Positions 42,658 to 51,506 of a stretch of 64,000 nt of DNA are shown here, one piece after another. The position numbers and the translations under genes are program-made. The DNA comes from an uncultured Pedobacter sp. (lineage in GTDB: Bacteria > Bacteroidota > Bacteroidia > Sphingobacteriales > Sphingobacteriaceae). A model generated the notes under the pieces. The model was not told the origin of the DNA. It searched no databases and saw nothing but the letters and a program-made list of their open reading frames with translations. The stretch is taken from contig NZ_CAJYOJ010000045.1 of the NCBI RefSeq assembly GCF_913776295.1, forward strand, positions 62,001-126,000. The letters are read 5' to 3'. Position 1 is the stretch's first letter. Each line of letters begins with the position of its first letter.

Positions 42658-43029
42658 ATGACTAAAAAAATTAATGATATAGCAAAAGCAATTAAAAATT
42701 CACCGTTACAAGTTGCCGCCCTAGCATTATATCTAGATGTTGATGATACGACAATAAGCAAATGGAATTCAAATATTGCCCAACCTAGTTTAAAACGTCT
42801 AAATGAAGTTGGTGAAATTTTAGAAGTTGACAATAAAGAATTACTTAGTTCACAATCAAGAAAACAAACAGGACTTGCTGCCGCGTTGCAAGGCGAATAT
42901 AAAAGATTATTATCTATTGGATTGACAAAAAAAGTGATAGTAAAGGACGACAATGGCGACAGCAGAGAGGTTAATAATCCGGATATGGTCAAGAAGTTGA
43001 GGGAGTTTGCGGAGAAGTATAAAAAATAA
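42658..43029 (+). CDS. XRE-family HTH regulator of the defence operon
   Basis: A 123-aa protein with an N-terminal HTH_3/Cro-C1-type domain: SPLQVAALALYLDVDDTTISKWNSNIAQPSLKRLNEV (~17-54). The remainder is short and charged. It is the first gene of the plus-strand operon and has a 19-bp dyad right before its start, so it probably controls its own operon, as controller proteins of restriction-modification systems do. It may delay helicase/ATPase expression until the DNA is protected (inference). Confidence 0.75.
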   Translation: MTKKINDIAKAIKNSPLQVAALALYLDVDDTTISKWNSNIAQPSLKRLNEVGEILEVDNKELLSSQSRKQTGLAAALQGEYKRLLSIGLTKKVIVKDDNGDSREVNNPDMVKKLREFAEKYKK

Positions 43030-43033
43030 TATT

Positions 43034-43258
43034 ATGAATCAAGAAATAACAAATTTAATAAACGCGGCTGAAGAGCTAAAAGGTCAAAATGTTATGGTGA
43101 CTTTCAAAGATGGTCAAGCTCAAAATGGCACATTAAAGAGTACTAAGTTTACCGACAAATCTTTTGATGTATTTATAGAATTGGCCGACGAAGCCGATGA
43201 AAGCATTTTGTTCAATTTGGAGAAAGTTGCTTCTATCCAAGCAACACAGCACAAATAA
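43034..43258 (+). CDS. Small hypothetical protein, possibly Sm-like fold
   Basis: 75 aa from the ATG at 43034 (MNQEITNLINAAEEL); an in-frame start at 43007 would overlap the previous gene. The pattern GQNVMVTFKDGQAQNGTLKSTKFTDKSFDVFIEL followed by EKVASIQ resembles the five-strand barrel of Sm-like or SH3-like proteins. This is pattern-level similarity only. It lies 4 bases after the XRE gene in the defence operon, and its role is unknown. Confidence 0.6.
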   Translation: MNQEITNLINAAEELKGQNVMVTFKDGQAQNGTLKSTKFTDKSFDVFIELADEADESILFNLEKVASIQATQHK

Positions 43259-43269
43259 ATTAATTCAAT

Positions 43270-43503
43270 ATGAAAATTCTTGCTCAATCTTTTAAACCAA
43301 AACCTGGCCTTGATGACAAATATACTTTATATGATAATGGAATGATTGTCCATACCTACGATAGGCACATCTATAAAGGTGGTCAAGACAGGACGGAAGA
43401 GCTAACAGCCGAACAATTAAGCGATGAGATTAAGCACCTATTATTGGATGATTGTGCAGAAGATAACAAAGCCCAAGTAAAAATCATCTTAAAAGTAGTT
43501 TAG
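43270..43503 (+). CDS. Small hypothetical protein in the defence operon
   Basis: 77 aa, acidic C-terminal half (DEIKHLLLDDCAEDNKAQVKIILKVV), no recognised domain. It starts 11 bases after the previous stop and ends 38 bases before the helicase gene, so it belongs to the same transcript. It could be an accessory or antitoxin-type partner; nothing in the sequence settles this. Confidence 0.55.
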   Translation: MKILAQSFKPKPGLDDKYTLYDNGMIVHTYDRHIYKGGQDRTEELTAEQLSDEIKHLLLDDCAEDNKAQVKIILKVV

Positions 43504-43541
43504 CAAGTTGAACCATTTAAAATACGAAATATAGAAATCTG

Positions 43542-45800
43542 ATGCTGAATACCATCGATTGGCCAAGGAGTAGAAATTATAGAACTGGATCGGAGTATGA
43601 GCCTATCCAATTTTATTTAGATGGCCTGAGTAACAGCATAAGATTTGACTTGCTATTGGGATACTTTAGCTCAGCGGCAATCAGCGTTTTATCTCTTGGT
43701 TTCGCCCGTTTTATCTACGATGGTGGAAATTTAAGAGTAATTGCAAATCATATCCTTTCAAAAATTGATAAGGAAACTTTGATTACTTCATTACAGAAAC
43801 AAATACAACCTCCCATTGATCTGACTGATATTGAATCGATAAAAGAAACCCTGGATGAATATGATATTCATTTTTTCCAATGTCTATCTTACTTGATAAG
43901 TAATAAAAGAATTGATATTAAAATCGTAAAATCCAAAGGAAAGGGTATCGTCCATTATAAATCAGGCGTTTTCGATGACGGCAAACAAAAAGTATCTTTT
44001 AAAGCATCCTGTAATTTTACAGCCTATGGTTTGTTGGAAAATGCCGAAGAACTTGATGCTACCTTATCTTGGGATAATGTTTTATCATCTGATAAAATAG
44101 AAGATCAAGAAAGTTATTTTGAGCAAATATTCTCTGGTAATGCTGATTTCGTTGAATATATCAATCCGATGAATATTTTAGAGGCTATTAAAGATAGCTT
44201 CGGCGATAAGTCTATCGATGAACTTTTAATACAGGAAAAAGATTTAGCTGAGAAAAGGCTTAAAGTATTTTCGAATCCAAAACTCAAAAATTCGATTGAG
44301 TTGTTGGAACAAACTCTGGAAACAATAAAGCTAAGACCTAGATTTCCTTATCCCAATGGCCCTCGTCGATATCAGATTGATGCATACAACAAGTGGGTGG
44401 CCAATAACTACCAGGGGTTATTTGCAATGGCTACCGGTACAGGAAAAACCCTAACATCGTTAAATTGCATTCTAGAAGAATACAAAAAGAGCGGCTTCTA
44501 CAAATTTGTGGTATTAGTTCCAAGCATCTCCCTTGCCAACCAATGGGAAGAGGAAGTTGTAGAGAAGTTTAGATTTTCAAATGCGATTGTATGCTCCAGT
44601 AAAAGGCCTGCCTGGCAAAAGGATTTACGCTTGCTGGGGAAAAATCTCTTTTTAGATAATGACAAAGATTATGCGATAATATTGACATATGCCACTTTTA
44701 GAAGTAAGAATTTTAATAAAATTTTTGCAGAACTTTTTAAGAGCGAGTTTAGTAAAATAACTCTAATTGCTGATGAAGCCCATACAATGGGATCGCCAGG
44801 TTTTTTAAAGTTAATACCTAATTATATTAAGTACCGTATAGGGCTCTCTGCCACGCCTGAAAGGCAATTTGATGATATTGGTGAACAAGAAATAAATACC
44901 TTTTTTAATACGAAACCGCCGCGATACACCTTCGTTTTCGATATGAAACAAGCCATTGATCAAGGTGTTTTATGTAAATATTATTACTATCCGAAGATTG
45001 TATCTCTAGAGACAGATGAGATCAATAAATATTTAGATATAAGCAAAAAGCTAATTAAGTTTTTTGACGCTTCAACCGGCAGGTACCAAGATAATGATTA
45101 TGTAAATCTCTTACTTATACAAAGGAAAAATGTTATTCATAAAGCTAAAGGTAAAATAGTTGCTTTAGATAAAATAGTTAAAGAGATTGGTGTAAAGGAT
45201 TTTAGAAACGCATTTATATATGTTCCTGAAGGAAACGATCCTGACTATGCCAAAGTAGACGAATCGGTCAATGGCGAACAAGATAATATTAATGAAAGCT
45301 TAATCGATATTTATACTAATTCTCTTTACCAGAACTTTAAACTAAAATTAAAAAAGTTTACGGGAAAAACTTTAGATAGGGAAACGATAATTGACCTATT
45401 TAAACGAGGGAAAGTAGACGCACTGCTTGCGATGAAATGTTTGGATGAGGGGATAGATATCCCGCAAACAAAGTATGCCATATTTTGCTCTAGTACTGGG
45501 AATCCAAGGCAATTTGTTCAACGAAGAGGTAGAGTATTGAGAATGCACGATGACAAAGAATTTGCAATCATTTATGACATGATTGTTAAGCCAATATTGG
45601 ACATTACATCAACCGATGATAATCTAAGAAAGGCAGAGAGGAATATTTTCCTAAGTGAATTGAAACGATTCATCAATTTTGCGGTTTTGTCAGAAAATAA
45701 GTCTGAGAGTTTAGCCGAATTAGAGGAAATTGCTTATGCACTTGATATAGACATATATGCTCTGGAGTTAGAAGAAATGAAAAAATATAACGTAATCTAA
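43542..45800 (+). CDS. PLD-domain plus superfamily 2 DEAD/DEAH helicase
   Basis: A 752-aa fusion. The N-terminal ~170 residues look like a phospholipase-D/HKD-type nuclease domain, with HYK (138-140) and the following SFKASCNF segment in the position of the second half of the HxK...GSxN motif. The helicase core follows: MATGTGKT (296-303), DEAHTMG (411-417), SATPER (436-441), MKCLDEGIDIP (631-641) and the arginine-finger motif QRRGRVLR (660-667). The likely job is to translocate on and cut invading DNA. One base separates it from the 70-aa gene. Similar helicases occur in the restriction modules that accompany phosphorothioation systems; whether this is an SspF/G/H-type protein needs alignment. 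Confidence 0.85.
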   Translation: MLNTIDWPRSRNYRTGSEYEPIQFYLDGLSNSIRFDLLLGYFSSAAISVLSLGFARFIYDGGNLRVIANHILSKIDKETLITSLQKQIQPPIDLTDIESIKETLDEYDIHFFQCLSYLISNKRIDIKIVKSKGKGIVHYKSGVFDDGKQKVSFKASCNFTAYGLLENAEELDATLSWDNVLSSDKIEDQESYFEQIFSGNADFVEYINPMNILEAIKDSFGDKSIDELLIQEKDLAEKRLKVFSNPKLKNSIELLEQTLETIKLRPRFPYPNGPRRYQIDAYNKWVANNYQGLFAMATGTGKTLTSLNCILEEYKKSGFYKFVVLVPSISLANQWEEEVVEKFRFSNAIVCSSKRPAWQKDLRLLGKNLFLDNDKDYAIILTYATFRSKNFNKIFAELFKSEFSKITLIADEAHTMGSPGFLKLIPNYIKYRIGLSATPERQFDDIGEQEINTFFNTKPPRYTFVFDMKQAIDQGVLCKYYYYPKIVSLETDEINKYLDISKKLIKFFDASTGRYQDNDYVNLLLIQRKNVIHKAKGKIVALDKIVKEIGVKDFRNAFIYVPEGNDPDYAKVDESVNGEQDNINESLIDIYTNSLYQNFKLKLKKFTGKTLDRETIIDLFKRGKVDALLAMKCLDEGIDIPQTKYAIFCSSTGNPRQFVQRRGRVLRMHDDKEFAIIYDMIVKPILDITSTDDNLRKAERNIFLSELKRFINFAVLSENKSESLAELEEIAYALDIDIYALELEEMKKYNVI

Positions 45801-45801
45801 A

Positions 45802-46014
45802 ATGAAAACGCTAAACGATATCTTAAGAGAAGAATTCACTGGAATTTTAGGCGAAGAGGAATTCGTAGAAATGATAGCTCGTAATAAGCTCGATACTGGG
45901 GTAATTAAAGAAGCTTTTGATGTTCTGCTGGAATTCAAATATCAGGCTGTACCTGATCGAGGGAAAACTGAATTTGAGAATTATATTATTAATACAATTA
46001 AATCAGATAAATAA
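45802..46014 (+). CDS. 70-aa hypothetical protein between helicase and SMC ATPase
   Basis: An acidic helical protein (MKTLNDILREEFTGILGEEEFVEMIARNKLD...). It starts one base after the helicase stop and its own TAA overlaps the next ATG (TAATG), so translation is coupled to both neighbours. The tight packing suggests a small subunit of a complex with the helicase and ATPase. No family recognised. Confidence 0.65.
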   Translation: MKTLNDILREEFTGILGEEEFVEMIARNKLDTGVIKEAFDVLLEFKYQAVPDRGKTEFENYIINTIKSDK

Positions 46015-48134
46015 TGCTAATTAATAGTTTAAGAGTTAATAATTTCTATTGTTATTTGGATGAAAATGTATTTGAGTTCTCAAAGGGTTTAAATATAGTT
46101 TCCGGATTAAACTCTGGCGGAAAATCACAACTGTTCAATGCATTCTACTGGACTTTGTTCAACAAGGTATATGTAGATATTGATAGCTCAACAACAAAAA
46201 AGGAATGGAAAGATGCAGATAAGATTATTATTGCTCCCGAGAAAATTGAATATGAAAGTTTGATAGGTGATAGAATAGAGTGTTTTGTAGAAATAGGTTT
46301 AACAAATGAGTTCCATGAAAACGAAGAGCCAAAAGGAGAACTTGTAGATTACACAATTTTAAAATCCGTAACTTATGAAAAACATAAGGACGGGCTTTAT
46401 TTTGTTTCCAAGCCAGAACTAACCATTTCGTATGTAACTGGAGGAGAAATTAATTATATTAAAAGTACAGATTTTAACTGGTTTTTGAATAGAATTTTTC
46501 CTAGCAGTATTCGAAAGTTTATGTGGTTTCAGGGTGAAACTGTAGATGAATTATACGATTTTTCAAAGCCAAGCACGCTTAATAATGCAATTAACGAAAT
46601 TTCATATTTCCCGCTTTATGATAATCTTAACAGCATAGTAGATGCATCAGTTTCTAGCATAGAAAAGAAAATTGATAAAGAATTACGATCAAGAAAAAAA
46701 TTAACAAATGATCAAGAGGAATTGATCCAGAAGATAAACACCACGAAGGATTCAATTGCCAAACTACAACAATCTATTACTACTAACGAAGAGAAAGTAG
46801 CAGAAATTACCGAAGCAATATATCTGGAAGAACAAAAACTCAAAGGTTTTGATAAATATACCGACCTAAAGGTGAAAATTAACAAACTTGATTCGGATTT
46901 TCAATATGCAAAAGATAGGATAGATAGCTTGGTTGGAGAAAGTAAGGAAAAACTTATCAGTAAATGGATGTTAAATGGCTGCGATAAACTGATCAAGGCT
47001 TCAGAAAAGAATTTAAAAATTATACAGGCTGAAATACAATCTTTTCAAAAATCAGAAAACCCTGTTCCTATTACCTTGCCGGGCCCCGAATATGTGGAGA
47101 AGATGATTGCTGATCACATTTGTTACATTTGTGAACGTCCTGTTGAGGAAGGCTCGCCTGCTTATAAAGCCTTAGAACTACGTTTAGAAGATTTTAAAAC
47201 AAATCAGGATTACAAAATTTTAAATGATAATTATACTGAATTAAATAGAGCGCGCAAGAAATTGTTAGGTATTTTGCCTGATATTGAGCAAGAGGTGATC
47301 GATCATAATAAAGAGATTGACAAATCTATTGAGAAGAGAAATAAGATTTACAACCAGAAAAAAGTTGTTTTCGCTGAATCTGGAGTTACAAAAGAAGAAG
47401 ATATTTCAATAGGTTCATCTACAGCAAGTCAGATATTGAATAAAGTAGAAAGTCTTCGAAATAATAAAGATAGGCTCGATAAATATTTATTCAATAACAA
47501 ACTAGAAATCAACGATCTAGAAAACAAACTACAAGACCTTTTAAAAGTTAAAAGCGATACGATAAAACTTGATGGTGGCATTGTTGAAGAAGAGGCGAGA
47601 GATTATATCATTTTATTTTCTAAAACGATAGCATTATTGCGTCAACGTGCATTGACGACTTTGATTAATGAAATTCAAGCGGAAAGTAATACTTTATACA
47701 ATTTGTATTTGGGCGGGCGGGCCCAAGGTGAAATCATTATCGATAGAGGGGTATCTGTTATAGATAAGCATACTAAGAACATTATGTCTAATCTAAATAC
47801 AGCTGAAATAGTTGCTCAGAAACTAGCTGTTGCCAATTCTTTTTTATCATTGAGCGAAAAGACGTTGGGAAGATCTTTCCCGATGATTGCTGACGCACCT
47901 ACGTCAGATCTTGATCATTTAAATACCGCTAACCTAACCAAAAGCTTAGGGAAATCTTTTGAACAAATGATCATCATGTCTAAGGACTATGCTTTGTTGT
48001 CGGATGCAGAAAGACAAGCAATGATTAATGATGCAAATGTTGTCAAGTATTACGAGTTAACCAATGATTTAATCGATAAAGATGGGCCCGAATCTAGAAT
48101 TAATAAAAAAACTTATGTAACTGTTATAAAATAG
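46014..48134 (+). CDS. SMC/Rad50/DndD-like ATPase with zinc-hook CxxC
   Basis: A 706-aa AAA_23-type ABC ATPase. Walker A GLNSGGKSQ (31-39) at the N-terminus, two coiled-coil arms (~215-345 and ~385-515) around a hook with CYIC (370-373), then the ABC signature region and Walker B/D-loop SFPMIADAPTSDLD (621-634). The layout matches DndD of the Dnd phosphorothioation system and Rad50-like proteins, and the length (~650-700 aa) suits DndD. It probably senses or bridges DNA ends and drives the associated helicase/nuclease. Assignment to DndD, SspFGH or another family needs profile searches. Confidence 0.82.
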   Translation: MLINSLRVNNFYCYLDENVFEFSKGLNIVSGLNSGGKSQLFNAFYWTLFNKVYVDIDSSTTKKEWKDADKIIIAPEKIEYESLIGDRIECFVEIGLTNEFHENEEPKGELVDYTILKSVTYEKHKDGLYFVSKPELTISYVTGGEINYIKSTDFNWFLNRIFPSSIRKFMWFQGETVDELYDFSKPSTLNNAINEISYFPLYDNLNSIVDASVSSIEKKIDKELRSRKKLTNDQEELIQKINTTKDSIAKLQQSITTNEEKVAEITEAIYLEEQKLKGFDKYTDLKVKINKLDSDFQYAKDRIDSLVGESKEKLISKWMLNGCDKLIKASEKNLKIIQAEIQSFQKSENPVPITLPGPEYVEKMIADHICYICERPVEEGSPAYKALELRLEDFKTNQDYKILNDNYTELNRARKKLLGILPDIEQEVIDHNKEIDKSIEKRNKIYNQKKVVFAESGVTKEEDISIGSSTASQILNKVESLRNNKDRLDKYLFNNKLEINDLENKLQDLLKVKSDTIKLDGGIVEEEARDYIILFSKTIALLRQRALTTLINEIQAESNTLYNLYLGGRAQGEIIIDRGVSVIDKHTKNIMSNLNTAEIVAQKLAVANSFLSLSEKTLGRSFPMIADAPTSDLDHLNTANLTKSLGKSFEQMIIMSKDYALLSDAERQAMINDANVVKYYELTNDLIDKDGPESRINKKTYVTVIK

Positions 48135-48620
48135 ATGGAAAAGTTAATCTTAGAACTCAATAAGCGTAACGTTCATTACGGTAATAATGTAACACAAGTA
48201 AGAGACCTGTTTGCAAGGAAACAAGAATCCATAACTAAACAAGATGATAAATTTTTCTCCAAGTATTGGCAGGTTTATGCGTGGTCTGCTATTATTGGTT
48301 TTGTTAATAATAAAAGAATAGTTGGCGCTGATTTGCCTAACCAATCTTCATTCCAATATCAGATGATATCGAATGGGTCTGATGATATTGCAAGCGCATT
48401 ACTGTTGATGGCTATTGGAAAAGTGGAAAGTGAAAATATTGATGAAATTTTAAATTCTAGAAAACTCCTAACCATAATCAGCGAGTATGCTGAAGGCGGG
48501 GCAAAGCATGTTCTAGAAATACGACAAACACCAGGTTTTGAGCGGAAATTTAATAGCCCAGATGACTATTTCTATGAGGTGGTGAGTAGAACAAGGAAAG
48601 CGAATAAAACACAAATGTAA
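48135..48620 (+). CDS. 161-aa hypothetical protein, possibly phosphorothioation-associated
   Basis: It starts immediately after the ATPase stop and overlaps the next start (TAATG). The central YWQVYAWSAIIGFVNNKRI followed by a helical segment ending in YAEGGAKHVLEI resembles the small proteins accompanying dnd/dpt operons, in which an aromatic-hydrophobic helix plus a GF-x-x-x-K/R turn is common. This is a weak, pattern-based resemblance. Likely a subunit of the same complex. Confidence 0.55.
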   Translation: MEKLILELNKRNVHYGNNVTQVRDLFARKQESITKQDDKFFSKYWQVYAWSAIIGFVNNKRIVGADLPNQSSFQYQMISNGSDDIASALLLMAIGKVESENIDEILNSRKLLTIISEYAEGGAKHVLEIRQTPGFERKFNSPDDYFYEVVSRTRKANKTQM

Positions 48621-49003
48621 TGCTTGATCAAGACAATTTCATTGATTCTTTAAAGCGAGACCGGGCAAGGGGCAACCTCGCCCCTCATCAAATTATCCTC
48701 TTGATTAGTTTTTTCAACTTAGGAAAAGACAGATTGACAATACATGAACTTGTTTCGGAGTTTGACAAAAACTGGGAAACATATAAGCATCTTTTTAAGT
48801 CTAATAACCGAAACATTGGAATGCCATTGAAAGCGATGTTAAATAATAATTTAATTACAATTGAGACCTTTAGTTCCATTGAAAATCATAGAAACACACG
48901 GGAGATCTTATCAAAGATTATTTTGGTTTCATTAAGCGAAACCCTAACCGAATTCTTTACATCTGTTAATAAAGAATATCTGGAAACAAGAATTGAGTTT
49001 TAA
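48620..49003 (+). CDS. 127-aa winged-helix-like protein
   Basis: The segment ARGNLAPHQIILLISFFNLGKDRLTIHELVSEFD resembles the wHTH domain ('APHKPLLLLAL...') that precedes HNH nuclease domains in many restriction proteins. Here it stands alone with no HNH. Overlapping start and stop codons tie it to the 161-aa gene. A DNA-binding or adaptor role is plausible. Confidence 0.55.
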   Translation: MLDQDNFIDSLKRDRARGNLAPHQIILLISFFNLGKDRLTIHELVSEFDKNWETYKHLFKSNNRNIGMPLKAMLNNNLITIETFSSIENHRNTREILSKIILVSLSETLTEFFTSVNKEYLETRIEF

Positions 49004-49028
49004 TATTCACCTAATACTTTTAAACACT

Positions 49029-49538
49029 ATGGATTTATCAAGTTTTGATCTTGAAGGTCTTCAAAGCCTTCATTTATCTTATCACCGAATTTTAGAAAAC
49101 CACATTAACAAATTGGAGGAGCTAAATAAAAATAATAATAGCGATGATAAATTGCTTAGGGAGTTAATGGAAATAAAAATTGAACAATTCAGGATTCAGA
49201 TTTCCGCAATAGAAGATAGGATAAATGCTTTGAATAACCAAAAATTAAGGTTTTCAGTAGAGTATATGAAATGGCATTTCGGGGTATTCAAGAAAGCTGT
49301 GCAAATACATTTCTTACCTACATCGAATGCATTTAAAACATATGGAGGGTATATTACCGGCACCGTTTTAATTGATGAGGATGATCCTGAAGGACTAATG
49401 CAAGCTATACGTGAAGGAAAAAACTCAGATGGGATTATTAAATTTGATGAAACCGTATCTGATGAAATGCCTGGAGATATTAAAGAGAAACTGAGAACTA
49501 TAGGTTTTTATGCTTCTGAAATTATAACAATTTATTAA
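49029..49538 (+). CDS. Hypothetical protein with N-terminal coiled coil
   Basis: 169 aa from the ATG at 49029 (MDLSSFDLEGLQSL); the longer frame from 48993 would overlap the previous gene by 11 bases. Residues ~20-75 are strongly helical (HINKLEELNKNNNSDDKLLRELMEIKIEQFRIQISAIEDRINAL); the C-terminal part is beta-rich. No family recognised. Last gene of the plus-strand operon, ending at the shared terminator. Confidence 0.55.
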   Translation: MDLSSFDLEGLQSLHLSYHRILENHINKLEELNKNNNSDDKLLRELMEIKIEQFRIQISAIEDRINALNNQKLRFSVEYMKWHFGVFKKAVQIHFLPTSNAFKTYGGYITGTVLIDEDDPEGLMQAIREGKNSDGIIKFDETVSDEMPGDIKEKLRTIGFYASEIITIY

Positions 49539-49615: not shown

Positions 49616-50458
49616 TTATCTGATTTCGCTCAATTCTGAAATAATTTCAAATATTTCTTCATGGTTATTTTTGGGATCATAAGGTATGATATTAATATTA
49701 TAATCCTTACGCCAGCGATCTATTTCAACCCCTGTTAATTCCTCTTTATTCATTATAGCATAGTGATCTGGAGATCCACCATGGAAAACATTATGAATAA
49801 ACCTCAAAATTAAAGCTAATTCAGGATCTTTCAAAGATGCTCCTACAAAAAGTAAATTATTCGTGGAGAAAAGTGCATGCAGAACGCTTTGGTAACCGAG
49901 TTCATTATAAATAATTTTACGATAGTCTTGTTCTGTAAGAACAATTTCGCTAGGTGCTCCATCAGCACTACCATGAGCCTTAAGGATAAAAAATTCTTTA
50001 TTAATAATCTTATAGTTAATCGTTGGAGCTTCCTTGTAAGTTAGATCAGGCGGAACATCAAAATATTTCTTTACATAAGCTTTTTCGATCAACTTATCAT
50101 AATTGGTGGTGATTATAAACCTACTGTTAAGTTCCAGAAGTTTGATATGAGTATCCGTTGGCTTCAAGGTCTTATCATCAAATTTTTCCTTGATATATTT
50201 TTCAAACGCACTCCCTAAAGTTTCTCTTAATTCCTGTGCTAACATCAAATATTTATCGGAAAATTTAACCAACTCGTAAAGTTCTGTTTCCTTTTGACCG
50301 TTAATCGCGTTGATATCCTTACATTTTGCTATCAAATCTTTTAAGAGATTTTCCCAACTTGGAAGCCCTGCTCCCTGAGATAGCCCTGCTCCAACATAGA
50401 CGCCGAAGGCTCCATTTTTGTAATGTTGGATTAATTGATTAGGTAATCTTCCTGACAT
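49616..50458 (-). CDS. SIR2-domain protein (putative NADase effector)
   Basis: A 280-aa SIR2_2-type protein. GVYVGAGLSQGAGLPSW (19-35) is the NAD-binding loop, ITTNYD (116-121) the second NAD contact, KAHGS (160-164) supplies the catalytic His, and FVGASLKDPEL (204-214) closes the fold. Proteins of this type in Thoeris, DSR and Argonaute-linked systems deplete NAD+ to kill infected cells. It is the last gene of the ssp-like operon, one base downstream of the DUF262 gene, so the two are probably functional partners. There is no extra sensor domain in the protein, which suggests it is switched on by a neighbour. Confidence 0.85.
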   Translation of the reverse strand: MSGRLPNQLIQHYKNGAFGVYVGAGLSQGAGLPSWENLLKDLIAKCKDINAINGQKETELYELVKFSDKYLMLAQELRETLGSAFEKYIKEKFDDKTLKPTDTHIKLLELNSRFIITTNYDKLIEKAYVKKYFDVPPDLTYKEAPTINYKIINKEFFILKAHGSADGAPSEIVLTEQDYRKIIYNELGYQSVLHALFSTNNLLFVGASLKDPELALILRFIHNVFHGGSPDHYAIMNKEELTGVEIDRWRKDYNINIIPYDPKNNHEEIFEIISELSEIR

Positions 50459-50459
50459 T

Positions 50460-51506
50460 TTATTTGAGAGTAAAATTTTGGTTGTTAAAAAATTTATGAT
50501 AGAAAACCCGATATCTAATTTTCAAGTTTTCCTTTAAGGCACCACCAGTTTTAAAAGCAATGATGTAGTCATATAGATCTTTATCATAACTAGTTTTGGT
50601 TTTATCCTCAATTAACATTTCAGGACTCTTATTATTAGCACGGCGCAAAAGCTCAAACGACCAAATTTCATCTGACAACGTTTTAGCATCTATTGATGAA
50701 AAATTATCTAATTCCTTATACAATAAATAAAATATGTCGACAAATCCCCATTTGTTTTTAAACATACCCTTATGATATGAATTGATTTCTTTCAAATAAT
50801 CCAATACTTTATTTGCTCTCTGCAACAAGTTGCCAAATTCGGCAATAGATGAATTTGCGAATTCAAGATACAAATGCTTCATATCAGTCCCTTTGATATT
50901 CCTTGCTCCATCATATTTACAAAGCGTCAATGCATTATCTAAATAATCTTGATGCTTATATCGACCATTTATAATTTTACATTCTTTTTCAATAAAAAAT
51001 GTATGATTCGAAGCAAGAGATATAATCGCAAAACCGATATTTGAAGAAATTGCATGCCTAAGTTCTACGGAGTTTAATTTTTCTCCCAATTGCAGTCTTG
51101 CGAAAAGAGTTCTAATTTCCTCTTGACTAAATTCAGTAAGAATGGATAATGATATAGGAAACTCTTCAAAGCGTGATTTGAGTGACTGATGAGCCATTAG
51201 GTCAGCATAAGAATAACCTTTTATATTAATCCCCTCAATTACACTCTCATCGAGTTTAAATTGGTTATCTACAAATTCCCAGATAGAACGCATCCTTTGC
51301 TGGCCATCCACTGCTTCGTAAAGGAATAAATGTCCTTCTGCTAAATAAAATTTCGGAAGATCGTAACCTCTGAGTATACTATCAATAAGTAATTTTTTTT
51401 TGGGCAACAACCATACTGGTGCTCGTTGGTATTGAGGCTTTGGGTCAATGTCTTCTTTTAAGTCAATTAGCTTTTTTAAAGTAATCTGTTGTGCTTTTAT
51501 TTTCAT
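50460..51506 (-). CDS. DUF262 protein, short SspE-like sensor without HNH half
   Basis: 348 aa. The N-terminal DUF262 signature is clear: PQYQRAPVW (24-32) and VDGQQRMRSIWEF (66-78); the DGQQR motif is the NTPase/phosphorothioate-sensing element in SspE. Full SspE has a second, DUF1524 HNH half and is roughly twice as long; here the C-terminal ~150 residues show no HxxP/HNH pattern I can see. It sits between the SspD-like and SIR2 genes (9 bases and 1 base). Inference: it senses modified versus unmodified DNA and passes the signal to SIR2. Confidence 0.78.
   Translation of the reverse strand: MKIKAQQITLKKLIDLKEDIDPKPQYQRAPVWLLPKKKLLIDSILRGYDLPKFYLAEGHLFLYEAVDGQQRMRSIWEFVDNQFKLDESVIEGINIKGYSYADLMAHQSLKSRFEEFPISLSILTEFSQEEIRTLFARLQLGEKLNSVELRHAISSNIGFAIISLASNHTFFIEKECKIINGRYKHQDYLDNALTLCKYDGARNIKGTDMKHLYLEFANSSIAEFGNLLQRANKVLDYLKEINSYHKGMFKNKWGFVDIFYLLYKELDNFSSIDAKTLSDEIWSFELLRRANNKSPEMLIEDKTKTSYDKDLYDYIIAFKTGGALKENLKIRYRVFYHKFFNNQNFTLK

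Follow-up and report, generated by a model that had tools for sequence, protein, structure and literature searches.

The DNA stretch analyzed here (the window) comprises 64,000 nucleotides of contig NZ_CAJYOJ010000045.1 from an uncultured Pedobacter sp. (assembly GCF_913776295.1). Between positions 42658 and 49538 it encodes nine open reading frames (ORFs) on the forward strand, which a first-pass annotation of the letters had described as a nine-gene helicase/SMC cassette facing a phosphorothioate (PT) operon, either SspFGH-like or a new restriction module. Translation recovered all nine ORFs where they had been placed. They resolve into four core genes (43542-48620), assigned as a Pbe-type module with the order PbeA-B-C-D, one accessory gene for a PT-reader-like protein, one orphan gene and three upstream genes without recurrence in related loci (Table 1). 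On the opposite strand the module faces an operon encoding SspB, SspC, SspD, a DUF262 protein and a SIR2_2 protein. Sequence comparisons and structure models make it likely that PbeA-B-C-D works together with the facing SspBCD as one PT-based defence locus. The idea of a restriction- or interference-type module adjoining a PT operon, for which Pbe had been listed as one candidate, is thus borne out by the Pbe-type core facing SspB/C/D.

Table 1. Genes of the cassette and of the facing operon in window coordinates.
Feature	Position	Strand	Basis
XRE/HTH_3-like regulator, 123 aa	42658..43029	+	Pfam HTH_3 18.6 bits (cut-off 23)
SM-ATX-like small protein, 74 aa (ATG start) or 83 aa (TTG start at 43007)	43034..43258	+	Pfam SM-ATX 21.7 bits (cut-off 29.8)
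77-aa protein	43270..43503	+	matches no family
PbeA, 752 aa: HKD (PLD-type) nuclease + SF2 helicase	43542..45800	+	PDLC02706 972.6 bits
PbeB-position small protein, 70 aa	45802..46014	+	position, size
PbeC-type ABC ATPase, CYIC (CxxC) hook, 706 aa	46014..48134	+	PbeC 90.8 bits
PbeD, 161 aa, DndE-like predicted fold	48135..48620	+	TIGR04062 20.4 bits (cut-off 74.25), profile chain, VIA-align
Sulfur-binding-domain-like protein, candidate PT reader, 127 aa	48620..49003	+	predicted fold, profile, pocket residues
169-aa protein, partly coiled-coil-like by eye	49029..49538	+	no family match above cut-off
SIR2_2 protein, 280 aa, candidate NADase effector	49616..50458	-	Pfam SIR2_2 94.8 bits
DUF262 protein (GmrSD_N only), 348 aa, DGQQR motif	50460..51506	-	Pfam GmrSD_N 51.6 bits
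SspD, 371 aa	51516..52631	-	PADLOC 291.9 bits
SspC, 1078 aa	52615..55851	-	PADLOC 1159.2 bits
SspB (DUF4007), 291 aa	55844..56719	-	PADLOC SspB 299.4 bits; Pfam DUF4007 253.3 bits

The Pbe-type module and its gene assignments

PbeA combines an HKD nuclease of the phospholipase D (PLD) type with a superfamily 2 (SF2) helicase, an architecture already recognized in the first-pass annotation. In 88 aligned PbeA proteins the residues H138, K140, D146 and N158 are kept without exception and S156 in 87/88, and the Walker A, DExH and SAT motifs and the arginines of motif VI are likewise kept. The HKD site, HxK(x5)D...SxN, looks active judging from these residues. With the family model TIGR04095 the protein scores 385.8 bits, which is under the cut-off of 600. 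The 706-aa ATPase possesses the CYIC hook that had been noticed before and is assigned as a diverged PbeC, the best PbeC model in PADLOC scoring above LmuB (75.2 bits). CxxC is found in the hook region of 74/75 PbeC proteins, the exception being the Dnd-linked locus L020 with CIC; the hooks of L018, L019 and L021 were found to show CIC as well. PbeC is present in 72/73 loci having at least 3 kb right of PbeA, an ORF occupies the PbeB place in 79/87 loci and the PbeD place in 72/87, and therefore the core set recurs beyond chance.

The two small core proteins differ in how they can be assigned. The 70-aa protein has its own close family in 13 loci, and profile comparison gave no link to classical PbeB (probability 0.29; all PbeB values at most 0.92), so that the ORF is taken as PbeB by its place and size. 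For the 161-aa protein (model from 36 rows; predicted local distance difference test (pLDDT) 85.0, predicted template modelling score (pTM) 0.83), VIA-align placed three DndE structures first with Z 8.6 (4lrv, root mean square deviation 2.7, 102 residues aligned), 8.5 and 6.8, followed by a row at 3.2. Foldseek returned nothing under 0.001, with a transposase as best row (0.71) and DndE next (1.0). Profile comparison linked the family to proteins that occupy the PbeD place in further Bacteroidota loci, with probabilities of 95.8 and 98.1, and the PbeD-place profile that scored 95.8 is in turn linked to classical PbeD with 96.0; the direct link from the 161-aa family to classical PbeD is weak (28.2). 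On the basis of VIA-align and of this profile chain the protein is assigned as PbeD with a DndE-like predicted fold, which agrees with the available text of PMC10853773, where PbeD is termed a DndE cognate. From the proteins that had been called unassigned, those of 70 aa (PbeB by position), 161 aa (PbeD) and 127 aa (sulfur-binding-domain-like) can hence be placed, and only for that of 169 aa does the term still apply.

With the DndCDEA-PbeABCD system, as presented in the accessible parts of its description and reannotation (Xiong 2019, PMC6459918; PMC10853773), the module shares the fused HKD nuclease and SF2 helicase of PbeA, the PbeB place, the hook ABC ATPase, the DndE-like PbeD, the gene order and the adjoining PT modification genes. 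In contrast, the writer in the window is SspBCD instead of Dnd, the hook is CxxC instead of CxC, PbeC reaches only 90.8 bits with its best model and an additional gene encodes the sulfur-binding-domain-like protein. The agreement with a named system therefore covers the four core genes and not the cassette end to end, the pairing with Ssp, like the 127-aa protein, falling outside of what these accessible parts describe. An identical A-B-C-D order is found on a Pontibrevibacter plasmid, where the four Pbe genes are accompanied by DndBCDE and a desulfurase.

The proposal of an SspFGH-like cassette found no support, and neither did a DndFGH identity: no SspF/G/H or DndF/G/H model is among the matches listed for the nine proteins (in one case 25 of 28 matches; whether the library holds SspFGH models was not checked).

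Linkage of the Pbe module to Ssp and Dnd operons

The facing genes are SspB/C/D and not Dnd genes, DndC models reaching at most 27.3 bits for the SspD gene. SspB, SspC and SspD are in common with the SspABCD-SspE and SspABCD-SspFGH systems as far as these are covered by the available text of PMC8092258; the window differs from them by its Pbe-type interference genes, by the missing desulfurase gene and by a DUF262 protein without GmrSD_C. SspE was rejected as identity of the DUF262 protein because its 348 aa contain only GmrSD_N and no DUF1524/GmrSD_C half.

The partners of PbeA were counted with one genome per species in the best 80 of 474 PbeA relatives. In the stretches examined, 63 contained SspB, C or D, five contained DndC/D, none both and 12 neither. 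Eleven of these 12 lie on cut contigs and in the twelfth, L028, SspBCD is located just past its stretch, which results in a final tally of 64 Ssp loci, five Dnd loci and 11 cut contigs with neither. For the 11 cut loci, SspB is encoded elsewhere in three assemblies (L057, L096, L098), and neither SspB nor DndC (the latter at 1e-10) was found in the other eight. Restricted to the 51 loci flanked by 9 kb or more on each side, the count is 48 Ssp, three Dnd and none with neither. A cassette that is common without a PT operon nearby, which had been named, along with its being functional there, as the finding that would speak against a restriction module of this kind, was therefore not encountered among these close relatives. 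Among the 63 Ssp loci, 32 have SspD upstream in the same orientation, 30 have it downstream on the opposite strand as in the window and one has it downstream on the same strand; in 36/63 PbeA comes directly after a desulfurase gene, which the window does not have.

The base rate was determined in 395 Bacteroidia genomes, of which five encode PbeA, 15 SspB and four both (Fisher p 6.7e-6). In all four the two genes are close together, with the modules facing each other in the window, G004 and G125 and with a cut-short PbeA after SspBCD in G199. The fifth PbeA genome, G065, encodes DndC approximately 11 kb from PbeA and is without SspB. The cut-short PbeA of G199 (L017, G199:C24, 9706-10707), which follows shortly after SspBCD, apparently marks a decayed Ssp-Pbe locus.

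Outside of the Bacteroidota, 10 of 25 matching plasmid records were sampled, for which the gene table is incomplete. A Rhizobium plasmid encodes PbeB-C-D-A facing SspD-C-B-desulfurase, showing that the pairing exists outside of this phylum, and Dnd lies beside Pbe in 2/10 records (Pontibrevibacter and Chlorohelix). A DNA methyltransferase gene was found directly before PbeA in one record and directly after PbeD in another. The annotation of the remaining five records shows no Ssp or Dnd gene in the stretch, and in three of these a methyltransferase lies farther away. PbeA relatives were also observed in the phage records H26-H29 (27-45% identity), which are unannotated entries named "Bacteriophage sp." from human faeces; among viral contigs (best 80 of 87 relatives), full-length relatives are restricted to L102 and L103 (42%) and the weaker L105 and L104.

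A PbeA tree was built from 89 rows by a quick method. One starred group contains 82/89 rows (Ssp 65, none 11, Dnd 6) and consists of Bacteroidota wherever a phylum is named, save one Kiritimatiellae contig (L092). Five of its Dnd rows form one starred clade and the sixth, L056, is separate. The Rhizobium row lies outside of this group, its placement being unsure due to long branches, and because of this position the pairing with Ssp probably has more than one origin. In 45 loci the Mantel correlation of PbeA distances was rho 0.598 with SspC, 0.613 with SspD and 0.703 with PbeC; it was 0.784 for SspC-SspD and 0.392 for PbeC-SspC, with 0/999 permutations as high in every pair. PbeA distances track those of SspC almost as well as those of PbeC. 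If only the identities to the window are considered, PbeA and SspC are uncorrelated (rho 0.18, p 0.16, 61 loci). For DndCD and PbeAC a value of 0.107, obtained by a different method, is given in the available part of PMC6459918.

Several observations weigh against a joint function of Pbe and Ssp. The Mantel values carry no correction for how closely the hosts are related. Compared with the Arcticibacter locus L032, the window shows 94% identity in SspD, 74% in SspC, 51% in PbeA and 42% in PbeC, so the modules are exchanged separately and neighbourhood is no proof of partnership. The proportion of 48/51 describes this PbeA clade (best 80 of 474) and not all Pbe, and just one of the 10 plasmid records is paired with Ssp and two with Dnd. 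The cysteine desulfurase SspA is absent from the locus, the three Aminotran_5 matches in the genome all lying off the contig of the window, and the CYIC hook departs from the CxC of classical PbeC. Finally, cleavage of viral DNA was not observed in the Pbe study according to its accessible text (PMC6459918), which speaks against a nuclease mechanism.

Some of these points would suit a Pbe module that is independent of the Ssp mark, i.e., a stand-alone ATPase/nuclease defence that is a neighbour of Ssp only through defence islands. The separate exchange seen between window and L032 fits with this, as do the loci elsewhere in which Pbe accompanies Dnd, lies beside methyltransferases or occurs without annotated Ssp or Dnd genes in the stretch. 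In the excerpts available, 320/553 PbeAC are reported without dndCD (PMC6459918) and Pbe is doubted as replacement of DndFGH (PMC10853773). However, none of the 51 well-flanked close relatives is without a PT operon, set against SspB in only 15/395 genomes, and PT-reader-like proteins recur in Ssp-Pbe loci, which makes such independence quite improbable.

In the open-access literature neither an Ssp-Pbe pairing nor a stand-alone sulfur-binding domain (SBD) with Pbe was found described; subscription papers were not covered and an earlier description is possible. In their available portions, open-access papers mentioning Pbe pair it with Dnd or list it beside Ssp in general terms, and PMC7464106 counts strains with pbeA-D and PT-modifying genes with dnd or ssp pooled, so that its count could include Ssp-Pbe. 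The accessible text of PMC8092258 states that 2,211/2,678 sspBCD loci (printed as 83.9%) are without SspE and SspFGH and suggests further restriction partners; that of PMC6459918 leaves open the partner of the 320/553 PbeAC lacking dndCD. As far as these portions go, the Ssp-Pbe pairing answers part of both gaps. The arrangement is met with repeatedly in Bacteroidota and may close a gap among the known anti-phage systems. It implies that one interference module goes with two labelling machines, Dnd and Ssp, the studied Ssp marking one strand.

The sulfur-binding-domain-like 127-aa protein

Relatives of the 127-aa protein (42-46% identity) are encoded after PbeD in L022, L025, L029 and L067. 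Together with the window copy the gene is present in 5/14 cassettes of the PbeBCD type of the window (the window and 13 loci sharing the type) and is thus an accessory. The family is rare, since of the 395 Bacteroidia genomes only two gave a match, one being that of the window and the other containing a fragment interrupted by a stop (5.5e-4). The predicted structure (five rows, pLDDT 90.1) gave as best Foldseek match the SBD of Hga with PT-DNA (E 4e-4). In VIA-align the top five rows are all SBDs, with Z 9.6-10.6 over 122-125 of 127 residues (Z 10.6 over 125), followed by the winged helices of Orc2/Cdc6 with Z 9.5-9.1 over 97-98 residues, which by Z is a tie. A profile of eight plasmid proteins of the SBD-HNH type matched the 127-aa family with probability 92.8 (E 3.9e-7), whereas none of 11 control comparisons exceeded 2.03; the Variovorax member of this set matches 8h0l at 1.5e-27. 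Among the PDB sequences phmmer with the single 127-aa sequence found no SBD, and the five-row profile listed an SBD first, with E 0.09 only.

The binding pocket of ScoMcrA consists of H116, R117, Y164, P165 and A168, and Y164M strengthened and R117Q weakened binding, as stated in the accessible text of PMC6224610. In the profile alignment the equivalents in the window protein are H23, Q24, M68, P69 and A72, the last counted three on from P69. H23, Q24, P69 and A72 are identical in all five family members, H23 and P69 matching H116 and P165. The pocket thus appears mostly, not wholly, kept. With the SBDs of Hga, ScoMcrA and SprMcrA (8h0l, 5zmo, 7ccd) the protein shares the predicted fold, the pocket H/P/A and the lid M; it differs in being stand-alone, in having Q at the R117 position and in having no fused HNH domain. 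By predicted fold, profile and most pocket residues the protein accordingly resembles a stand-alone SBD, the domain known to recognize PT-DNA.

The main rival for the 127-aa protein, which we rate at just under an even chance, is a generic winged-helix DNA binder or regulator in a Pbe module that is nonetheless linked to Ssp, with self-recognition residing in PbeC-PbeD or PbeB. The Orc/Cdc6 winged helices come within 1 of the SBD rows by Z, and the SBD is itself regarded as a winged helix in the available text of PMC10853773; the SBD rows, however, span nearly the whole protein, and the profile match is far above all controls. Two findings count against a PT reader: a glutamine replaces the basic residue R117 in 5/5 members, where neither R nor K occurs, and the gene is missing from 9/14 close cassettes. 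The plasmid SBD-HNH proteins L213 and L216 also have Q at this position. The failed phmmer search and a weak PADLOC match to NsnC (18.2 bits) would likewise suit the generic DNA binder, against which stand the invariant H23, P69 and A72 and clear SBD proteins in L094 and L100. If the protein is a small stand-alone sulfur-binding protein, it would be a direct handle on PT-based self/non-self discrimination, and as a trans-acting reader it would contrast with the SBDs described in the accessible literature, which are parts of nucleases attacking PT-DNA.

An SBD model was used to scan the 7,607 ORFs of the 88 loci, reporting up to E 0.01. Outside of the 127-aa family, matches were confined to L100 (746 aa, 1.1e-34, and 179 aa, 4.2e-22) and L094 (179 aa, 2e-23, directly after PbeD). 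In the 127-aa family three members matched at 1.9e-6, 0.0013 and 0.0043, that of L022 staying above 0.01. In the scan of the other loci the window copy scored 0.0055, besides the eight proteins the model was built from; a 517-aa SBD-matching frame (6.2e-6) adjoins the desulfurase of the Rhizobium Ssp-Pbe locus. Other SBD proteins in Ssp-Pbe loci are hence those of L094, L100 and L204. SBD proteins in general were detected in 32/395 genomes, mostly as long frames of approximately 290-430 aa, so the mere presence of an SBD somewhere in a genome does not count as evidence; in this genome-wide use of the model the window copy fails 1e-5.

Further SBD proteins were observed in other arrangements. 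In L100 (15247-20237) a complete PbeABCD is followed by a second PbeC-like ATPase, the 746-aa protein with an N-terminal SBD and the 179-aa SBD protein. On the Chlorohelix plasmid with its Dnd-Pbe locus (L205, 14228-15217) an SBD-HNH endonuclease gene follows a short annotated PbeC piece. Two Bacteroidia genomes in which PbeA has no match show SBD matches at most 5 kb from SspB (G188:C1, 2053334 and 2057980; G091:C58, 13155 and 14050).

Candidate effectors, proposed mechanism and flanking genes

The slot that separates SspD from the Pbe module (or from its desulfurase) contains an ORF of at least 90 aa in 51/63 loci and none in 12; in 49 of the 51 ORF-holding loci a non-Ssp ORF is present. The slot sets were sorted by the domains of 19 representatives, by BLAST to the window genes and for the remainder by eye from the sequence starts. 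The DUF262 and SIR2 set of the window, which adjoins SspD, recurs in L033, L043, L048, L064 and L091. Other sets comprise DUF262 combined with a protein kinase, HATPase sets, GIY-YIG combined with HATPase, an exonuclease, a BrxC/D-like ATPase set, a nucleoside-deoxyribosyltransferase-like protein, a DndB-like protein and a full GmrSD. In their sequence features the slot sets fit exchangeable back-up effectors, an idea raised for Dnd systems in the available text of PMC10853773. The SIR2_2 protein has TTNYD and AHG motifs and matches ThsA (119.3 bits) and LmuA (90.4 bits) in PADLOC; the DUF262 protein, which has no nuclease half, and the SIR2 protein could together be a second, suicide-type effector.

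The DUF262 protein (NsnA, 94.7 bits) and the 127-aa protein (NsnC) both resemble one PADLOC system, Nsn, which we take to be Menshen. The window differs from that system in that its ATPase matches PbeC and LmuB and in that PbeA, PbeD and Ssp genes are present. An Nsn-type system, too, might read a DNA mark.

For the functional steps and protein contacts we infer the following. SspBCD, together with a cysteine desulfurase encoded elsewhere, would place sulfur marks on the host DNA, each sulfur taking the position of an oxygen. The hook ATPase PbeC and PbeD with its predicted DndE fold might scan or bridge DNA, PbeA would travel along the DNA and its HKD site would nick or block unmarked DNA. 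The 127-aa protein may act as reader of the sulfur mark and help to spare self DNA, and the DUF262 and SIR2 proteins would serve as exchangeable back-up effector with suicide via SIR2. An alternative derived from the accessible part of PMC10853773 is a toxin-like, abortive machine, in which the HKD site cleaves the own DNA upon phage attack and the PbeB-position protein acts as brake. The kept HKD residues, the small fast-changing protein at the PbeB place and the SIR2 protein in the facing operon are compatible with it; the steady pairing with a PT writer is explained less simply, and we regard this alternative as unlikely. In the broadest form, Ssp-Pbe would be an immune system in its own right, widespread in Bacteroidota and built of three modules, the SspBCD writer, the PbeABCD scanner-nuclease and exchangeable effectors, one branch having a stand-alone SBD protein as in-trans PT self-reader; this is put forward tentatively, at somewhat less than an even chance.

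The three upstream genes are probably outside of the core, because they do not recur across the 88 loci as the core genes do. In BLAST (1e-5) the SM-like and the 77-aa protein have no relative in these loci, and XRE relatives were found in L034 and L037 only, approximately 3 kb upstream of PbeA; the XRE/HTH_3-like regulator probably exerts local control. The 169-aa protein likewise has no relative in the 88 loci (BLAST, 1e-5), and its frame can start at the ATG at 49029 or, with 181 aa, at the TTG at 48993. The genes are tightly packed, as had been described, although just two junctions, 70 aa/ATPase at 46014 and 161/127 aa at 48620, are TAATG overlaps and not all of those from the 70-aa gene onward: the helicase and the 70-aa gene are separated by 1 nt, the ATPase and the 161-aa gene by 0 nt and the last two genes by 25 nt. 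No tRNA was found when looked for in the window. Promoter-like patterns (42, compared with 32.9 in shuffles, standard deviation 6.8) and terminator-like patterns (6, compared with 3.6, standard deviation 1.6) were not used as evidence. The guanine-cytosine content is 0.31-0.37 in each kb from 42 to 57 kb, and elsewhere in the window mostly 0.38-0.44, with 0.49-0.53 at 36-41 kb; the low values at 42-57 kb would fit an acquired block.

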